Assembly: GCA_016280825.1 (NCBI GenBank)
Contig: JAEEHL010000191.1
Location: 1 to 33,082 of the forward strand
DNA from: Verrucomicrobiota bacterium
Lineage (GTDB): Bacteria > Verrucomicrobiota > Kiritimatiellia > RFP12 > UBA1067
Reading direction: 5' to 3'
DNA length: 33,082 nt
The translations under genes and the position numbers were made by a program. Under the pieces are notes generated by a model, which did no database searches, was not told where the DNA came from, and was given only the letters and a program-made list of their open reading frames with translations. This document shows, in pieces, positions 22,610 through 32,100 of the stretch (the first letter of the stretch is position 1; each line of letters starts with the position of its first letter).

Positions 22610-23403
22610 TGCTTTCGCTTGACAGGCCCCTTGTCGTGTTCGACATCGAGTCAACGGGCACTTATCCCCGCAAGGACCGCATAATCGAGCTTGCGGCGAT
22701 CAAGGTCAACCCCGACGGCACGGAGGAGAGGCGGTGCTGGCTCCTGAACCCGACCGTCCACATCCCCGACGAGACGACGGCAATACACGGCATAAGCGAC
22801 GACGTCGTGAAGGACTGCCCGACTTTCGCCGACAAGGCGGCCGAGATATTCGCGTTTTTCGACGGGTGCGACCTTTCGGGCTTCAACGCCGACAGGTTCG
22901 ACATACCCTGCCTTGAGGAGGAGTTCGCCCGCACGGGAAGGGCGTTCGCGCCCTCCCAGAGGCGCCATGTCGATGTCCAGCGCATCTACCACCGCATGGA
23001 GCGGCGCGACCTCTGCGCGGCGGTGAAGTTCTACCTCGGGCGCGAGCACGAGGGTGCGCATGGGGCAGAGGCGGACGCGGAGGCGACCCTCCAGGTGCTC
23101 CGCGCGCAGCTTGAGAGGTATCCGGAGCTTCCGAAGACGACGGCGGAGATGGACGAGTACCTCGTTCCGCGCGATCCGCTCAACGCAGACCGCATGGGGA
23201 CGCTCCGCTGGAAGGACGGCGAGCTTACGGTCAACTTCGGCAGGAAGCGCGGCGAGAGCCTCAGGAAGCTCCTCCTGAACGAGCCCAACTTCCTTCGCTG
23301 GATGCTGAAAGGCGATTTCGACACCGAGGTCCTGATGATAGTCCGCGACCTCCTCGAACACGGGCGTCTCCCGCCCTGCCCGCCGGAGGCGCGGGCGAAA
23401 TGA
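22606..23403 (+). CDS. DnaQ-like (DEDD) 3'-5' exonuclease
   Basis: ExoI VVFDIESTG, ExoII LSGFNADRFDIPCLEEEF, ExoIII HGAEADAEATLQVL. Confidence 0.92.
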   Translation: MMLSLDRPLVVFDIESTGTYPRKDRIIELAAIKVNPDGTEERRCWLLNPTVHIPDETTAIHGISDDVVKDCPTFADKAAEIFAFFDGCDLSGFNADRFDIPCLEEEFARTGRAFAPSQRRHVDVQRIYHRMERRDLCAAVKFYLGREHEGAHGAEADAEATLQVLRAQLERYPELPKTTAEMDEYLVPRDPLNADRMGTLRWKDGELTVNFGRKRGESLRKLLLNEPNFLRWMLKGDFDTEVLMIVRDLLEHGRLPPCPPEARAK

Positions 23404-25418
23404 GCGAAGGGGCTCTCCTGCAGGATCTCGCGGCGATAACCGCGCTTGCGGGCATCGCTGCCGTTCTCTTTACGAAGCTCAGGTTCCCGAAGGTCGTAGG
23501 GTACCTTCTCGTAGGCGTGCTCATGAGCGCGAACACGTGGGGCGGGAGCTTCCTCCTCGATTCCGGCTCGGTGCGCATGATAGGCCAGCTCGGGGTCGTG
23601 TTCCTCATGTTCTCGATGGGGCTTGGCTTTTCGCCGTCGCGCCTGGGGGCGGTGAAGTCGGTCGCCCTGCCTGTCGCCGCAGTCGACACGCTCGTCATGC
23701 TGTGGGCGGGCTATACCGTAGGCACGAGGGTCTTCGGCTGGAGCTTTGCTGCGTCGGTCTTTCTCGGCGCCGCGATCTGCGATTCCGCGACGACGATGAT
23801 GGGCAGGGTGATCGACGAGATGAAATGGTCCTCGCGGCCGTTTGTTGACAGGGCAATTGGAATATCGATCTGCGAGGATATCGCATGCATCGGCGTTCTC
23901 GCCCTCGTTTCCGGCGTCATAGAGGGGGGAGGGGTTTCGCTGCGGGCGGTCGGGTGGTCGCTCGGCGCGCTTGGAGTGTTCCTTCTCGCCGTGACCGTGT
24001 TCGGCTTTGCCAACGTGCCGCGCCTCTTCGAGTCCGTGGCGAAGACGGGCGACAACGAGACGCTGCTCCTTTCCGTCCTCGGGTGCTGCTTCTTCGTCAC
24101 GTACCTCGCCTACAGGTTCGGCTATTCTCTCTCGCTCGGCGCCTTCCTCGTCGGCATGATCGCGGCGGCCAGCAGCTGCCGCAGGAGGATAGCGGAGCTT
24201 GCAGGCCCTCTCCGCACCATGTTCGCGGCAGTCTTCTTCATTTCCATCGGCCTTCTCGTCGACCCGGCGGCGTGCTTCCGGCTTCTGCCGCAGATAGCGC
24301 TGGTGACGGCAGTGGTGGTGGTCGGCAAGTTCCTCAACTGCACCCTCGTCTCCGTCGTCTGCGGCGAATCCGTGAAGACGGCGGTGCAGATCGGCATGTC
24401 GCTTGCGCAGATAGGGGAGTTCGCGTTCATGGTGGCGATGCTCTACGCAGCCGGAACTGGCGACTGGACCAGCCCCATGTACCAGATAACCGTCGCGGTG
24501 TCGCTTGTGACGACCATCCTGAACCCGTTCATGCTGCGCCTTTCCGAGCCCTTGGGCGAATGGACGGAGAGGCGGCTCGGGGTGCGCGTCCTCGGGAAGC
24601 TCGAGACGTATCGCGGGTTCGTCGCCAAGTACAGGTTCGGCACCAGGCCGGACGTCGCGGGCAGGCGGGCGGTGCGCCGCCATGTAGCGGTGCTTGCCAT
24701 ACTTGCAGTGCTTGTCTTCGCTGTCGCCTTTGCGATGTCGGCCCTGGCGTCTCGCGACTGGTCAGCGTTTTCAAGGTTCTTCGACGCCTACAAGCAGTTT
24801 ATCTTCTGCCTTGCCGCCAATCTCTTCGCGGCTGCGGCGCTCGCGCCGGCGGTAGTCGTGGCGAAGCGCCTCGGAGGGGATCTTGGGGAGCTTCTTTTCG
24901 GCGGCGAGCGGGCGAAGTGGCGCGATTCCATGCAGATGGCGGTGCGGCTTCTCGTGGTTATCGTCGTCATGGCTCTTTTCTTCGTGGAGGTTTCGATGCT
25001 CAACGTGAGCCTCGCCCCGCAGGGGACATGGGCCAAGCTCGCGATATTTGCGATACTTCTTGCCGCTGGCGCACTGGGCTGGAAGCGCTCGCTGCGCCTT
25101 GCGCGGCTTGCGGCGAGGCGCGTGCGCAGCGCGATGAACCAGGACGAGTTGGACGCCTCTCGCGGCGGCGCAGTTGACGGCGGCCAGGGGATAGGAGGCG
25201 TTTCGCGCATTGCGATACCGGAAGGGTCTGGCGCAATAGGCAGCACGCTGCGCTCCCTCGACATCCGCGCCCGAACGGGGACGCTTGTCATTTCGGTCGA
25301 GCGCGGCGGCGAGGTGACGGGCAATCCAGGCGCAGAGTGGGCGTTCGAGAAGGGCGACATCCTCGTGGTCCTTGGCGACGAATCGCAGGTGGCGTCGCTC
25401 CGCAGCATTCTTGTCTAG
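23400..25418 (+). CDS. Kef-type cation:proton antiporter with C-terminal TrkA-C/RCK-C-like domain
   Basis: CPA2 core FPKVVGYLLVGVLMSANTWGG and GYSLSLGAFLVGMIAA, polytopic; C-terminal GSTLRSLDIRARTGTLVISVERGGEVTGNPGAEWAFEKGDILVVLG. Confidence 0.9.
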   Translation: MSEGALLQDLAAITALAGIAAVLFTKLRFPKVVGYLLVGVLMSANTWGGSFLLDSGSVRMIGQLGVVFLMFSMGLGFSPSRLGAVKSVALPVAAVDTLVMLWAGYTVGTRVFGWSFAASVFLGAAICDSATTMMGRVIDEMKWSSRPFVDRAIGISICEDIACIGVLALVSGVIEGGGVSLRAVGWSLGALGVFLLAVTVFGFANVPRLFESVAKTGDNETLLLSVLGCCFFVTYLAYRFGYSLSLGAFLVGMIAAASSCRRRIAELAGPLRTMFAAVFFISIGLLVDPAACFRLLPQIALVTAVVVVGKFLNCTLVSVVCGESVKTAVQIGMSLAQIGEFAFMVAMLYAAGTGDWTSPMYQITVAVSLVTTILNPFMLRLSEPLGEWTERRLGVRVLGKLETYRGFVAKYRFGTRPDVAGRRAVRRHVAVLAILAVLVFAVAFAMSALASRDWSAFSRFFDAYKQFIFCLAANLFAAAALAPAVVVAKRLGGDLGELLFGGERAKWRDSMQMAVRLLVVIVVMALFFVEVSMLNVSLAPQGTWAKLAIFAILLAAGALGWKRSLRLARLAARRVRSAMNQDELDASRGGAVDGGQGIGGVSRIAIPEGSGAIGSTLRSLDIRARTGTLVISVERGGEVTGNPGAEWAFEKGDILVVLGDESQVASLRSILV

Positions 25419-25597: not shown

Positions 25598-25879
25598 ATG
25601 AAGAGAAAAGACCTTGAGGACGGCATACGCGATGCGATTCTCGCATCCGTGGAGGTGGAGGGCCTGACGGCGGAGGATCTGCCGTCCGAAGCTCCGCTGT
25701 TTGGAGATGACGGGGTGGGGCTTGATTCAATAGACGCCCTTGAAATCGGCGTTGCGCTCAAGAAGAAGTACAACGTCAATTTCAAGGCCAATTCGGAGAA
25801 GAACCGCGAAAGGTTCAGGACGGTGTCTTCCCTGGCGAGCTTCATCTCGGAATCTGCCGGCATTGAACTGGAGGACTGA
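25598..25879 (+). CDS. Acyl carrier protein-like protein (1)
   Basis: GLDSIDALEIGVALKKKY phosphopantetheine-attachment Ser motif. Confidence 0.9.
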   Translation: MKRKDLEDGIRDAILASVEVEGLTAEDLPSEAPLFGDDGVGLDSIDALEIGVALKKKYNVNFKANSEKNRERFRTVSSLASFISESAGIELED

Positions 25880-25884
25880 TTGAC

Positions 25885-26136
25885 ATGTCAAAGCGCGAAG
25901 AAGTTCTGGAACGCATCAAGAAGACACTTTCCGGGGAGTTCGAGTGCCCTCCGGAGAAGATAACCGAAGAGGCGCGTTTCTACGAAGACCTCGACCTCGA
26001 TTCAATCGACGCCGTCGATCTCATCGTGAGGCTGCGCCAGGAAGTGGACTTTGACCTGAAAAGCGAGGATTTCAAGGCAGTACGCACGGTAGGCGACCTG
26101 CTGGACGCCCTCGAAAAAGCTGCCGTCGCCAAGTGA
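25885..26136 (+). CDS. Acyl carrier protein (2)
   Basis: FYEDLDLDSIDAVDLIVRLRQE phosphopantetheine motif. Confidence 0.93.
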   Translation: MSKREEVLERIKKTLSGEFECPPEKITEEARFYEDLDLDSIDAVDLIVRLRQEVDFDLKSEDFKAVRTVGDLLDALEKAAVAK

Positions 26137-26139
26137 GCG

Positions 26140-26541
26140 ATGCGCCGTTCCGTGACCAAGACAGTATTGCAGGCCGGCGCGACGATCCTGGCGGTCTGGC
26201 TCGTGTATCTGTTCAAGGGCAACGTCTGGTTCAGGCTCTACCCGGTCGTCGTGACCGGTGCCGTCTTCCTGGCGTTTGCGCTGTCGCTGCGTGGAACGCC
26301 GCTAGTCGAGCGCTTCGCCATGCGCATGGGCGCCGACCTTGACGGCGGCGGCAGGGAGTACTGCCTCAAGGCGACGGTGGCCTGGACCGTGTTTCTCGCC
26401 GTGCACCTGGCAGTGACGGCGGCAACGGTCTTCGCTCCCCTTGAGATATGGGCCCTTTACAACGGCTGCATTGCATACGTCCTCATCGGCGCGATGTTCA
26501 TCGGCGAGTTCGCCGCAAGAAAGATTGCCCGTCATGGATGA
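26140..26541 (+). CDS. Small polytopic membrane protein, COG4648-like, of the type found in aryl-polyene clusters
   Basis: Several hydrophobic helices including YLFKGNVWFRLYPVVVTGAVFLAFALSL; lies between ACPs and the adenylating enzyme. Confidence 0.65.
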   Translation: MRRSVTKTVLQAGATILAVWLVYLFKGNVWFRLYPVVVTGAVFLAFALSLRGTPLVERFAMRMGADLDGGGREYCLKATVAWTVFLAVHLAVTAATVFAPLEIWALYNGCIAYVLIGAMFIGEFAARKIARHG

Positions 26542-27844
26542 AATGTCGTTCATGACGTCCGGGTCGACCGGCGAGCCGAGGCGAATCGCCCGCAGCCTTG
26601 ACGAGATGAAGGCCGACGCGGCATCCCTCGCCGCCCTGTTCGGTGAATCGTTTTCAAGGGCCGCGTTCCTTGCGGCGACCGTTCCCGAGGAGCATTTCTA
26701 CGGCGCGCTCTGGCGCAGGCTTCTCCCGGAGGCTCTCGGCATGCCCGTGGCGGACGGGATACAGACTTCCGTAGAGGACCTTTCCGCCCTTGCGGAACGC
26801 GGGAGGTTCGTCCTCGTCACTACGCCGTCGTTTCTCGAAAAGGCCGTGCGCCACCCGGACTTCGCATCGCTCAAGTCGTCGGTCGTGGACGTCGTGACTT
26901 CCGGGGGCGCGCTTTCGCAGGGCGCCTCCGAGTCGGCCACGCTTGCCATTGGCGTTTCGCCGCTTGAGATATACGGCTCGACCGAGGCCGGGACGATTGC
27001 GTGGAGAAGGCGCTCCGTTTCGCGGCTCTTCCGCTTTGCGTCCGGCGTGTCGGGCCATGAGGACGAAGGCGGTCGCCTCGTGGTCGAGTCGCCATTTGCC
27101 GCGGAAAGGCCGCTTGTGATGCACGACGCCGTTCGCTTTGCGGATTCGGGCGAGTTCGAAATCCTCGGGCGCACCGACAGGCTTGCGAAGGTTCTCGAGA
27201 AGTTCGTTTCGCTCGATGCCGTGGAAAGGGCGTTCGAGGCCCATCCGTTTGTGGAAAGGGCGCGTGCCGAGGCCGTCGACGTCGGCGGCGTTGCGCGAAC
27301 GGGGGTGCTCGCGGTCCTTTCGAAGGAGGGGCGCGAATTTCTTGCCGGTTCCACATACGAGGCCGTCATGTCGCGCCTTCGGCACGACATAGCGCCGACG
27401 CTCTCGTCGGGGGCATTCCCCAGGCGCATGCGCTTCGTGGCGGAAATGCCCGTGGACGCAAGGGGCAAGACGACTGCCGCGGCCGTGCGCGCCGAGCTTT
27501 CCGCGGCCTGCCACGAGCCGGTAGTCCTATCGTGGACTGCCATGGAGCGGACGCTCGACGCGGAGCTTGCGTTCCCGCCTGACGGCGGGTGGTTCGACGG
27601 GCACTTCCCCGAATTCCCGATACTTCCCGGCGTCGTGCAGCTCATCGTCCTGAGGCGCTTTGCGCTTCGCGCATTCGGGCGGTTCCCCGGCGTTTCGCAG
27701 TGGAGGAAAGTGAAGTTCCGGCGGCTTGTCCGCCCGGGCGAGCGCGTTCGCCTGAAAGTCGAAAGGAGGGACGAATGCAGTCTTGCGTTCGAGTATTCGG
27801 TTGGCGCAAAGGTCGCGTCTTCCGGAACTGTGCTGCCGCAATAG
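26534..27844 (+). CDS. AMP-forming acyl/aryl adenylating enzyme (N-terminally short) fused to a hotdog 3-hydroxyacyl-ACP dehydratase-like (ApeI/FabZ-type) domain
   Basis: MTSGSTGEPRRI (A3), EIYGSTEAG (A5), GRTDRLAKVLEKFVSLDAVE (A8), ARGKTTAAAVR (A10 Lys); C-terminal FPPDGGWFDGHFPEFPILPGVVQLIVL is a hotdog DH motif. Confidence 0.88.
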   Translation: MDEMSFMTSGSTGEPRRIARSLDEMKADAASLAALFGESFSRAAFLAATVPEEHFYGALWRRLLPEALGMPVADGIQTSVEDLSALAERGRFVLVTTPSFLEKAVRHPDFASLKSSVVDVVTSGGALSQGASESATLAIGVSPLEIYGSTEAGTIAWRRRSVSRLFRFASGVSGHEDEGGRLVVESPFAAERPLVMHDAVRFADSGEFEILGRTDRLAKVLEKFVSLDAVERAFEAHPFVERARAEAVDVGGVARTGVLAVLSKEGREFLAGSTYEAVMSRLRHDIAPTLSSGAFPRRMRFVAEMPVDARGKTTAAAVRAELSAACHEPVVLSWTAMERTLDAELAFPPDGGWFDGHFPEFPILPGVVQLIVLRRFALRAFGRFPGVSQWRKVKFRRLVRPGERVRLKVERRDECSLAFEYSVGAKVASSGTVLPQ

Positions 27845-28404
27845 CCGCGGCGTTCTTTATCGCTGCGCCTTGCTTGGCAGGCGAAGACGGCATCCGCGAC
27901 ATTGCCGAGAAGGCGATGCGCAAGGCGCTTTCGTCGTCCGCCGCGTGGAAGATGGAGCGCACCCTCCCCGGCACCGAGAAGGTCTTTGTCTCGTCCGGCA
28001 CCGTCAGCTGCCATGTAGGGGCAGAGGGCATTGAATGGCGCACCCTCGAGCCGTTCAGCGCACTTGTCGCCATGAAGAAGGACGCAATGGTCTTTGAGGA
28101 CGAAGACGGCCGGCGCGAGAAGTCCGCCAGCGACATGCCGCGCTATTCCGACATCCGCAAGGCGACCGACGCATTCGCCAAAGGCGAGAAGACCGCGTTT
28201 GACGACGTGTTCGAGGTCAAGGTCGAGGCGCTCGGGGAAGGCCGCTGGAAGGCGGTGTTCGTACCCAGGAACTCGATGCTTCGCGGCCTGGTCGAGAGCC
28301 TGTCGGTAGAGGGGAAGGATCTCCCCGAAAAGGCCGAGCTCAAAAGCGGCAACGGGGCCGTGAGCCGCATAGCGTTCGAGGAAAGAGGGGGCGATGCCAA
28401 ATAG
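27775..28404 (+). CDS. LolA-like periplasmic outer-membrane lipoprotein carrier homologue
   Basis: Signal peptide AAAIAAAFFIAAPCLA; LolA-like beta-rich body; position between ligase-DH and RND exporter as in aryl-polyene clusters. ATG at 27775. Confidence 0.7.
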   Translation: MQSCVRVFGWRKGRVFRNCAAAIAAAFFIAAPCLAGEDGIRDIAEKAMRKALSSSAAWKMERTLPGTEKVFVSSGTVSCHVGAEGIEWRTLEPFSALVAMKKDAMVFEDEDGRREKSASDMPRYSDIRKATDAFAKGEKTAFDDVFEVKVEALGEGRWKAVFVPRNSMLRGLVESLSVEGKDLPEKAELKSGNGAVSRIAFEERGGDAK

Positions 28405-30994
28405 GCGGCCGGCATTCGCCTTTGCCGCATCCGCCGCGCTTGCGCTGGCGGCATTGCTTGCATTTCTCGCCATAAGGCCGAAGGTAGGCCTTTCCGTCTA
28501 CGCGATGCTCGGCGACGGCTCTTCCTTCGTGTCGGACGAAGAGCGGAGCGAATCGGCCGGCACGGCGTTTGCCGTGATCTCCTCGGGTTCCGGCCCGTCG
28601 GTGTGCAACGAGGCCGCAAGGCACTTTGCGTCGCTTCTGCCCGCCAGGTTTCTCAAGTCCCAGCCTGCGGACGTCGCCGGCGCGCAGGGCATCCCCTCGG
28701 CGCTTGCGAGATTCGCCGCCCGCGCCGGGGGGCTTGTCGCAAAGCGCGATTTCGAGGCGCTTTCTACTGGCGAAGGGCGGGCCAGGATCGCGAGGGACGC
28801 CATCAGGCGCTATGTCGCCTCTCCCATGCCGCCGGCGTTCGGCCCGGACGACGACCCGTTTTGCCTCAAGGACAGGTTCCTCATGTCGTTTGCCGATTCG
28901 GGCGTATTCGTGCTGCCGGTTTCGCTGGCGAATGAAACGACGTCCGACATGGACGCCCTTGCCGCGTTTGCATCCGCGATGCGCGGGGCGGCGGCCAGTA
29001 CTGAGGAGGCGTTCGGCGGCAGGGTCCGCGTCATGCCGTGCGGAGTGCCGGTCCACACCGCCTCTGCCGTCTCGAAGTCGAAAAGGGAGATAGGGGTGCT
29101 TTCCGCGGTTTCGTCGCTTCTTATCCTCGCGATCGCGCTCTTGGCGTTCCGCCCGCTTTCCCGCATCTGGTACGTTGTCGCGTCGCTCGTCTTCTCCGTC
29201 TCGGCGGGCGCGACGGCGCTTGTGGTCTCGTCGCCGTCGTTCCACGTGATGACCATTGTCTTCGGCACTGCGGTTCTCGGCCTTGTTGTCGACTATTCGT
29301 TCCACTGGCTTCTTTGCGCAGCCGACGACTGGAGGCGCCCTGCGCGGAATCTCGCCATATCGTTTGCGACGACAGCGCTCTCGCTTGCGCCGCTTTGGTT
29401 CTCGTCGCTTCCGATACTGCGCGAGACGGCGGTGTTCCTCGTCTCGTCCCTCGCGGCCGCCTTTGCGTTCGCGGTCTGCTTCTGCCCCGTGCCGGAAAAA
29501 ACCGACCCGCGTCTCGAAACGCCCCCGTGCCGCCCGCAGAGAATCGCGAAGGGGGCGCTTCGCGTAGTTCTCGTCTCGGCGATGGCGGCGGCGGCAGTCC
29601 TGGCATCCCGCCTGAAGGTTGCAACCGACCCAGCGTCGCTCTACGTCCCCTCGGCCGAGCTTATGGAGCCCGAGCGCATTATTGCGTCGCTTTTCGAGCC
29701 GCCGCCCGAATCCGTTGCCGCGGACGTCCGCAGGCTTTACGCCGAGCAGGGCGAGAAGGTCGCCCGCGCGCTCGGCCTTTCGGAAACGCCCAGGCCGCCG
29801 GCCGTTCGGCGAAGCGCGGCGGCTGAGCTTTCGGCCGTGATGAACGCCCTTGCCGACGAAACGGCGCGGCGCTTCGCCCTTGCGCTCGTTGCAATGTTCG
29901 CCGCGCTCTTCGCAGTTTTCAGGCTGGGCGCGTTTGCAGTTGCGGCCCCGCCTGTCTTCGCAGTCGCCGTAGCAGCGGCTGCAGTCGCCGCGACAGGCGG
30001 AACGGCAAACCTGTTCCATATCCTCGCCGCGATCCTTCTCGCGGGCATGTGCGTGGACTATGCGGTATTCCTGCGCTCCGGGGAACGCGGCGCGCTAAAG
30101 TCGTCCACTTGTTCGCTCCTTACGAGCCTTGCCGGGTTCGGGGCGCTTGCATTCGTGTCGTTCCGCCCGGCCGCCGCATTTGGCACCGTTCTCGGGGTAG
30201 GGCTCCCCTCGGGCTTCCTCGCGGCGCTCGCGCTTCGGCCGAATCGCCGGGAGAGCGGCGTCGAGAAGGCCGCTTCGCCGCTTGGCATGGAGATAGTCTG
30301 GCTGTTCTACCGCGTCTTCGGGCTTCGCGCCATGCGCCTACTTGCGCAGTGCGTGGCAAGCTGCGTCTGGGCGTTTTCGCCAGCCGTGCGCAGGGCCTCG
30401 CCTTCGCGCAGGAAGCTTGTCCTGTTCGCGCGGTCGCTCGCCGACAAGACGGCGGTGGGGAGCGGGCGCGTCAAGGCGCTGAAGGTGGTGGACGACGGCT
30501 CGCCAGACGCGCGGGAATTCGCAGACGACGTCACGTCAGGGCGCGGCGTTTTCATCCTCTCGTCACATTGCGGCACGGTGGAGGCGCTTCTCGCCCTTGC
30601 GGAGAACCCGCCTGTCTTCCATGCCTGGACGGATTTCGAGCGCACGTCCGCGTTCAACGAATTCTACCTAAGGCACATCTGCGGCGGGAAGATATGCCTG
30701 CATTCCGTCTCGGACATCGGCCTTGACACAGCGTTCAGCGCCATTGGATGGCTGGAGCGCGGCGAGTGCCTCGTCATGGCGGGCGACAGGGGAAGGGGCG
30801 CGTTCCGCTTTGCCGCCGCGCTTGGGCGGCCAGTCTATTTCGCGACGTGCATTGCCGACGGCCCGGGATACGTCGCCGTCATCCGCCGCCTGCGCGGCAA
30901 GGCGCCTGAAATCGAGAAGGGGTTCTTCGCCGTGCTTGGCGAGCTCGAGGCGAAGCACCCGGACCAGGTATATGAATGGGAAGGGGTGAAATGA
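28394..30994 (+). CDS. RND/MMPL-family exporter fused to a C-terminal LpxL/HtrB-type lysophospholipid acyltransferase-like domain
   Basis: Duplicated TM bundles with VVDYSFHWLLC and GMCVDYAVFLRSGERGA (MMPL motifs); C-terminal FILSSHCGTVEALLALAE (HX4E), VMAGDRGRGAFRFAAALGRPVYFATCI (LpxL-like). Confidence 0.87.
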   Translation: MPNRRPAFAFAASAALALAALLAFLAIRPKVGLSVYAMLGDGSSFVSDEERSESAGTAFAVISSGSGPSVCNEAARHFASLLPARFLKSQPADVAGAQGIPSALARFAARAGGLVAKRDFEALSTGEGRARIARDAIRRYVASPMPPAFGPDDDPFCLKDRFLMSFADSGVFVLPVSLANETTSDMDALAAFASAMRGAAASTEEAFGGRVRVMPCGVPVHTASAVSKSKREIGVLSAVSSLLILAIALLAFRPLSRIWYVVASLVFSVSAGATALVVSSPSFHVMTIVFGTAVLGLVVDYSFHWLLCAADDWRRPARNLAISFATTALSLAPLWFSSLPILRETAVFLVSSLAAAFAFAVCFCPVPEKTDPRLETPPCRPQRIAKGALRVVLVSAMAAAAVLASRLKVATDPASLYVPSAELMEPERIIASLFEPPPESVAADVRRLYAEQGEKVARALGLSETPRPPAVRRSAAAELSAVMNALADETARRFALALVAMFAALFAVFRLGAFAVAAPPVFAVAVAAAAVAATGGTANLFHILAAILLAGMCVDYAVFLRSGERGALKSSTCSLLTSLAGFGALAFVSFRPAAAFGTVLGVGLPSGFLAALALRPNRRESGVEKAASPLGMEIVWLFYRVFGLRAMRLLAQCVASCVWAFSPAVRRASPSRRKLVLFARSLADKTAVGSGRVKALKVVDDGSPDAREFADDVTSGRGVFILSSHCGTVEALLALAENPPVFHAWTDFERTSAFNEFYLRHICGGKICLHSVSDIGLDTAFSAIGWLERGECLVMAGDRGRGAFRFAAALGRPVYFATCIADGPGYVAVIRRLRGKAPEIEKGFFAVLGELEAKHPDQVYEWEGVK

Positions 30995-32100
30995 GCCATT
31001 GCCGATATATGCTTTCTGAAATGGGCATCGTCTGCGCGCTCGGCGCGGACGTCGGCGAGGTCGGACGCAGGCTTGCGGCAGGCGACCAGTCGGGCATGAA
31101 GCCGCTCGGCGGCCTTTCAGGCGGCGAGTCTACGTTCTTCGGCTTTGCCGCCCGGATGCCGTCGCCAGCGACGATTGGCGAGCGCGTGAAGTCAGTGCTA
31201 GGCCTGCCGCGCGTCGGCGTGCTCGTCGATGCCGCGATGGAGCAGCTTTCCGCCGCCCTCGAAGCGGCCAAGTCGAGATATGGCGCGGCGAGAGTCGGCG
31301 CGGTCGTCGGCACGAGCAATTCCACGATGGAGGAGTTCACCGACAACCCCGACGTAATCGACATGTCGTGGCCGGCGAGGAGGCTGCGCGAAAGGTGGGG
31401 CGTGGAAGGGCCTTGCTGGGCAGTGTCGACGGCCTGTTCGTCGTCGGCAAAGGTCTTCGCCTCCGCGCGGCGGCTAATGGAGCGCGGGATATGCGACGCA
31501 GTCGTAGTCGGCGGGGCAGACGCCTACACGCGCACCGTCGTGGAGGGGTTCCATGCGCTTGAGGCGCTTTCGCCCGGGCTCGCGCGCCCGCTCGCGCCAG
31601 ACCGCGACGGAATAAACCTCGGCGAGGGCGCGGCGTTCTTCCTGATGGAGCGCGACGAAAGGCCGGGAGAGGGCGTCTGGCTCTCCGGCGTCGGAGAGTC
31701 GTCTGACGCATACCATCTGACCGCACCCGATCCCGAGGGGAAGGGCGCGGAGGCGGCGATGAGGCGTGCACTGGAGGACGCCGGGCTCGCGCCTCGCGAA
31801 ATTGACTTCATAAACCTGCACGGAACGGGAACGCAGCAGAACGACGCCATGGAATGCGCCGCAGTCGGGCGGATATTCGGCGGCAGGGAGCCAGTGGAAG
31901 GCTGTTCGCCAGCCGACGGGCTTGAAGTGCGGGTTGTTTCCACAAAGAGCCTCACGGGGCATTGCCTTGGCGCGGCAGGGGCAATCGAGGCCGCGCTTTG
32001 CTGGATCGAGCTTATGCGCCGCCCGGCGACGTGCCTTTCCAACTCGTTTGCCTTCGGCGGCAGCAACGCGTCCCTCGTGCTCGCCTCGCGGCACGTCTGA
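30991..32100 (+). CDS. Beta-ketoacyl-ACP synthase (FabF/ApeO-like KS)
   Basis: Cys in VSTACSSSAKVF, His in INLHGTGTQQNDAMEC, His in STKSLTGHCLGAAGAIEA, terminal NSFAFGGSNASLVL; ATGA overlap with the exporter gene. Confidence 0.95.
   Translation: MSHCRYMLSEMGIVCALGADVGEVGRRLAAGDQSGMKPLGGLSGGESTFFGFAARMPSPATIGERVKSVLGLPRVGVLVDAAMEQLSAALEAAKSRYGAARVGAVVGTSNSTMEEFTDNPDVIDMSWPARRLRERWGVEGPCWAVSTACSSSAKVFASARRLMERGICDAVVVGGADAYTRTVVEGFHALEALSPGLARPLAPDRDGINLGEGAAFFLMERDERPGEGVWLSGVGESSDAYHLTAPDPEGKGAEAAMRRALEDAGLAPREIDFINLHGTGTQQNDAMECAAVGRIFGGREPVEGCSPADGLEVRVVSTKSLTGHCLGAAGAIEAALCWIELMRRPATCLSNSFAFGGSNASLVLASRHV

Follow-up and report, generated by a model that had tools for sequence, protein, structure and literature searches.

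An ApeM-type exporter fused to an ApeJ-type acyltransferase in the aryl-polyene pathway of Kiritimatiellia

Introduction

How the carboxylic acid of an aryl polyene (APE), an antioxidant pigment, is anchored to lipid, and the route by which it reaches the outer membrane, are poorly resolved. In E. coli, where ApeJ consists of a GT2 glycosyltransferase and an acyltransferase and ApeM is an RND transporter, loss of apeJ or apeD leads to a build-up of APE whose attachment to lipid is defective (PMC8253772). The locus considered here lies within a 33,082-nucleotide stretch of Verrucomicrobiota DNA (hereafter, the window). In one of its ORFs, a sequence-only reading had recognized an RND/MMPL exporter and an LpxL-type acyltransferase joined in a single polypeptide. 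This raises the questions of whether such a protein is genuine, whether it belongs to the APE pathway and whether it couples lipidation to export.

Domain Composition of the Fusion Protein

The ORF in question (28394..30994, + strand) begins with ATG and encodes 866 amino acids in a single open frame with no internal stops. It overlaps a LolA-like gene at its 5' end (by ~11 bases) and a ketosynthase gene at its 3' end (by ~19 bases), as is expected in a tight operon. The product comprises an ApeM-type RND/MMPL exporter at residues 1-613 (28394..30232, +; boundary approximate), assigned by NCBIfam, profile and hydropathy evidence, and an LpxL/PatA-type acyltransferase domain of the ApeJ type at residues ~618-866 (30245..30991, +), assigned by phmmer, Foldseek and profile comparisons. 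All of the motifs previously singled out were located, namely VVDYSFHW (D300-Y301, in TM4), GMCVDYAVFLRS (D555-Y556, in TM10), SSHCGTVE (H725 and E730, the HX4E motif) and VMAGDRGRGAFRF (D798-R799). With one uninterrupted ORF, matches to both domains and recurrence in relatives (see below), the proposal of a single exporter-acyltransferase protein is borne out.

Hydropathy analysis revealed 12 TM segments in the exporter, arranged as 6 + 6, followed by two more hydrophobic helices that open the acyltransferase domain. Given the even number of TM helices, the acyltransferase would be placed on the cytoplasmic side of the membrane. Hydropathy and the helices of the model point to large periplasmic loops after TM1 and TM7, the second of which is short (residues ~407-485, ~80 residues, vs. 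~195 for the first). The earlier description of a full duplicated membrane half needs correcting in this respect. This loop is strongly reduced in the window protein and in those encoded at loci L036 and L003, and is longer in most other relatives. The D300-Y301 and D555-Y556 Asp-Tyr motifs are invariant in an alignment of 17 sequences. In MmpL3, such pairs in TM4 and TM10 act as a proton relay, and the motifs are common to HpnN, MmpL3 and the fusion protein. HpnN and MmpL3 are lipid-exporting RND proteins, exporters of the same kind as the RND part described here, but lack the acyltransferase domain that the fusion protein carries.

Pfam scans of the window protein by itself assigned no family. 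As such, domain assignment leans on relatives, profiles and fold. When the window sequence alone was used to search solved structures, nothing useful was returned, and a full-length AlphaFold model was poor (pLDDT 54, too low to interpret). The RND part matched the NCBIfam entries HAE3 (1.2e-6) and HpnN (8e-4) weakly, under the NCBIfam cut-offs. Relatives matched Pfam MMPL at up to 9e-9, above the cut-off, and a family profile of the RND part matched a solved HpnN-type RND protein (8e-8) and MmpL3 (0.0012). Together with the 12 TM segments, these matches uphold the RND/MMPL identity.

Turning to the C-terminal domain, 25 fused and stand-alone acyltransferases all share H725 and D798/R799 (the Asp-Arg pair of MAGDR), with conservation of E730 at 90% or higher. 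The window domain matched the acyltransferase half of E. coli ApeJ by phmmer (3e-7), with other fused proteins matching this half more strongly, down to 1e-20. A model of the last 250 residues (pLDDT 75, pTM 0.75) was compared with the PDB using Foldseek, yielding LpxM (7e-9) and PatA (7e-7, TM 0.58-0.60), while the domain profile could be aligned over 268 columns with a PF03279 protein encoded in the same genome (E 5e-8). PF03279 itself was matched by 6 of 25 aligned homologues (best 2e-19), with the window domain alone giving no match. With the HX4E motif intact, and with searches that might have contradicted an acyltransferase instead returning LpxM, PatA and the ApeJ half, the assignment of the C-terminus as an LpxL-type acyltransferase stands. 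Judging from the model, that label should probably be refined to include PatA, which is among the nearest solved folds alongside LpxM. PatA is an acyltransferase that modifies the sugar of a glycolipid, and both LpxM and PatA acylate sugar-containing lipids; by homology, the domain considered here may act on such a lipid as well. A PlsC-type (ApeD-like) identity was also considered and rejected, as a profile comparison with the same genome's ApeD gave no meaningful match and ApeD is encoded separately, on contig C162.

Recurrence of the Fusion

A search of 58 related genomes revealed homologues in 21, mostly as one uninterrupted frame across both halves. The four places returned by a contig search all belong to metagenome assemblies of Kiritimatiellia or Verrucomicrobia. 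Across 289 Verrucomicrobiota genomes, the fusion was detected in further genera of the same family and in a second family within the order, and in no other Verrucomicrobiota sampled. A plasmid search using the window protein gave no match. The set used for tree building comprised 23 distinct full-length single-ORF fusions of 851-1185 amino acids, from Kiritimatiellia genomes of two families, with the fused homologues retaining domain order and catalytic residues. Although the window belongs to a draft genome of 227 contigs that is 83% complete, there is next to no chance that a frameshift, deletion or other sequencing or assembly artefact joined two genes, since the same single-ORF fusion recurs, with the same domain order and catalytic residues, in independently assembled genomes of two families. 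The fusion is real and conserved across related gut Kiritimatiellia genomes.

Aryl-Polyene Pathway Context

The surrounding genes were named by searches with the APE proteins of E. coli CFT073 as queries, with functions taken from Table 1 of PMC8253772. Upstream of the fusion gene, all on the + strand, are genes encoding an ApeE-type acyl carrier protein (25598..25879; phmmer to E. coli ApeE, 2e-20; Pfam PP-binding), an ApeF-type acyl carrier protein (25885..26136; ApeF, 1e-19), an ApeG-type (COG4648) small membrane protein (26140..26541; ApeG, 2e-15), a fusion of an ApeH aryl/acyl-ACP synthetase and an ApeI 3-hydroxyacyl-ACP dehydratase (26534..27844, start inferred; Pfam AMP-binding and ApeI-like; phmmer ApeH, 1e-42, ApeI, 1e-5) and an ApeL-type LolA-like periplasmic carrier (27775..28404; ApeL, 2e-5). 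Downstream is an ApeO-type ketosynthase gene (30976..32100, +; ApeO, 6e-66; PRK09185). A sodium/proton exchanger with a TrkA-C domain is encoded directly upstream of the operon (23400-25418).

The order in the window is, therefore, apeE-F-G-H/I-L-M+acyltransferase-O. Related contigs run on with P, Q, R, C and D, and in the window genome apeP-Q-R-C-D are found together on contig C162. Between them, the window and C162 offer KS/CLF, KR, DH, ACP, AMP ligase, LolA and exporter genes. The aryl-polyene setting that had been proposed is accordingly supported by an operon that matches E. coli apeE-F-G-H/I-L-M-O and by the second half of the pathway on C162. The C162 half (L108:3183-11858) is set away from the window operon and adjoins cell-wall genes, with mraW and a gene for a penicillin-binding protein close by.

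GT2 is a separate ORF at loci L036, L039, L089 and L093. In the window genome, at 83% completeness, the search for an APE-type GT2 yielded just a 41% match, bearing a GtrA domain and lying outside the cluster. A PF03279 acyltransferase gene adjoins this GT2-GtrA gene, the genome's closest APE GT2 match (L109:5987-8419, contig C78). A further comparison is afforded by L093, from another family, with the order E-F-G-H/I-GT2-K-L-M/AT-O/P-Q-R-C-D. This locus is collinear with E. coli from E to R, but its acyltransferase ends ApeM rather than ApeJ, no ApeN was detected, and C and D come after R instead of before E. Further fusions of APE genes were noted, namely ApeH-ApeI in the window (26534-27844), ApeG-H-I (L094:12622-14514) and ApeO-ApeP (L093:7391-8986).

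The fused proteins are encoded in two settings, within APE operons or as orphans. Those of group A are mainly encoded within APE operons, and the ApeL-type gene is kept in the APE-linked relatives of this group. Most genes of group B are orphans beside rpL9, VWA, helicase or Mur ligase genes, with that at L094 being in an APE operon. Group C consists of two proteins, one in the APE operon at L093 and the other, from genome G274 (L092), encoded beside NAD synthase. At L047:9556-12915 and L048:129-3641, an orphan fused gene directly follows rpL9, with APE genes elsewhere in both genomes.

Such orphans, beside rpL9, NAD synthase or VWA genes, together with LpxM and PatA being the nearest solved folds, could be taken to mean that the fusion protein serves some other lipid, such as lipid A or a PIM-like glycolipid, its proximity to APE genes being coincidental. 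This reading is improbable, as genomes bearing orphans carry apeH and generally apeR elsewhere, whereas exporter-less congeners have neither. A search for ApeH succeeded in 29 of the 30 genomes bearing the exporter (the exception being G008) and in none of the 10 lacking it (Fisher p = 1e-8, uncorrected for kinship and just indicative, given that the genomes are related and incomplete). Likewise, an ApeR orthologue (>50% identity) is present in 27 of the 30 and in 0 of the 10. The acyltransferase, moreover, clusters with ApeJ-type domains and is separated from three LpxL-like paralogues encoded in the same genome, a split made less secure by long branches. The fusion is tied to the aryl-polyene pathway. 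With the same caveat of long branches, the tree also gives no support for the domain being a recent copy of any one of the genome's LpxL-like paralogues.

Origin of the Fusion

The APE cluster of E. coli CFT073 resembles that of the window in its exporter family, its acyltransferase domain and its gene order, E-F-G-H-(I)-...-L-M-...-O. The two differ in that the acyltransferase is joined to GT2 on ApeJ in E. coli but to ApeM in the fusion protein, with GT2 being separate where found; in the window, moreover, ApeI is fused to ApeH and no ApeN was detected between M and O. In clusters of Pseudoalteromonas (L114), Azospirillum (L116) and G329, a member of another Verrucomicrobiota family (L089), a homologous acyltransferase and an RND exporter likewise occur in one APE-type cluster. 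In these three clusters, however, each of acyltransferase, LolA and RND has a gene of its own, with that for the acyltransferase being upstream of lolA-RND. The free acyltransferase of G329, encoded beside apeL and apeM, matches the ApeJ acyltransferase at 2e-23. The flexirubin cluster of Chitinophaga pinensis also includes an acyltransferase, LolA, a glycosyltransferase and an exporter; in the portion of that report drawn upon here, these functions are listed separately and no fusion is described (PMC3992019).

That exporter and acyltransferase are usually separate, as the sequence-only reading had it, is true of characterized clusters, with the refinement that in E. coli the acyltransferase is the second half of ApeJ rather than free-standing. 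The fusion can as such be seen as a domain that changed partner. Searches of open-access papers turned up no account of an MMPL-acyltransferase fusion in either APE or flexirubin clusters, and the protein represents a new domain arrangement within a known pathway. An automatic NCBI name in Bacteroidota reads 'trifunctional MMPL family transporter/lysophospholipid acyltransferase/class I SAM-dependent methyltransferase'. If real, that protein also joins MMPL and acyltransferase but differs by the extra methyltransferase, and exporter-acyltransferase fusions would not be unique to the Kiritimatiellia group.

In the acyltransferase tree, all fused domains lie in one group (94/83), which also takes in three unfused domains that nest within group B. 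Three state changes are enough to explain this arrangement, for instance a single fusion followed by separation on two occasions. The same picture emerges from the RND tree, where the unfused exporter of G322 is nested as sister to a fused protein of its own genus. Both domain trees, in which outgroup placement is limited by long branches, are compatible with what may have been one ancient fusion.

Proposed Function and the Question of Coupling

Building on the domain identities, conservation, gene context, pathway co-occurrence and fusion history given above, an acceptor, a donor, a direction of transport and a degree of coupling can be proposed. The protein is probably the inner-membrane APE lipid exporter ApeM bearing a cytoplasmic C-terminal ApeJ acyltransferase domain that would acylate the APE glycolipid before export. 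GT2, a separate protein in relatives, would act at the inner membrane to make the glycolipid that serves as acceptor. With an ACP or CoA as donor, the His-Glu dyad of the C-terminal domain would then acylate a hydroxyl of this glycolipid at the cytoplasmic face, candidates for the acyl group being the APE chain carried by the neighboring ACPs, ApeE/F, or a fatty acid. Using the proton gradient via the Asp-Tyr pairs of TM4 and TM10, the RND part would next carry the completed lipid across to the periplasmic face, and from there the lipid would be passed to the LolA-like ApeL and on to the outer membrane.

That the same domain has GT2 as its fusion partner in one phylum and the exporter in a second amounts to Rosetta-stone evidence. 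The two partners suggest that GT2, acyltransferase and RND exporter act together in one attachment/export step. It is, furthermore, the acyltransferase half of ApeJ, not PlsC-type ApeD, that is singled out as the partner of the exporter.

It is plausible that the fusion would physically couple lipidation to export. In the strongest form of this idea, the acylated glycolipid would go straight from the cytoplasmic active site to the RND path, with only completed lipids being exported and the short second loop being an adaptation to this end; such a machine seems unlikely. A reading with considerably more in its favor, albeit somewhat short of an even chance, shares the domain and pathway assignments of the preferred ApeM-ApeJ reading and differs on coupling alone. 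Here, the fusion would chiefly fix stoichiometry and location, anchoring the acyltransferase near the exporter, or would reflect loss of a stop codon. Consistent with this, the acyltransferase retains its own N-terminal hydrophobic helices and fusions are frequent in these operons (ApeH-I in the window, G-H-I at L094, O-P at L093). Against this reading, the fusion has been kept through deep divergence (~30% identity) and after the gene left the operon.

Split forms of the protein also bear on this point. In G016 and G283, the protein is encoded by three ORFs, corresponding to the first RND half, the second RND half and the acyltransferase, which overlap by 19-22 bases and are split at matching positions. 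In G322, exporter and acyltransferase are unlinked, being found on different contigs (L090/L091). Covalent linkage is, therefore, not indispensable, and the idea that lipidation is coupled to export is weakened, although the separate proteins may form a complex. At the three-ORF loci (L052:9692-12311, + strand; L099:8281-10896, - strand), one cut falls between the two RND halves. This natural version of the protein provides exact module boundaries for its dissection.
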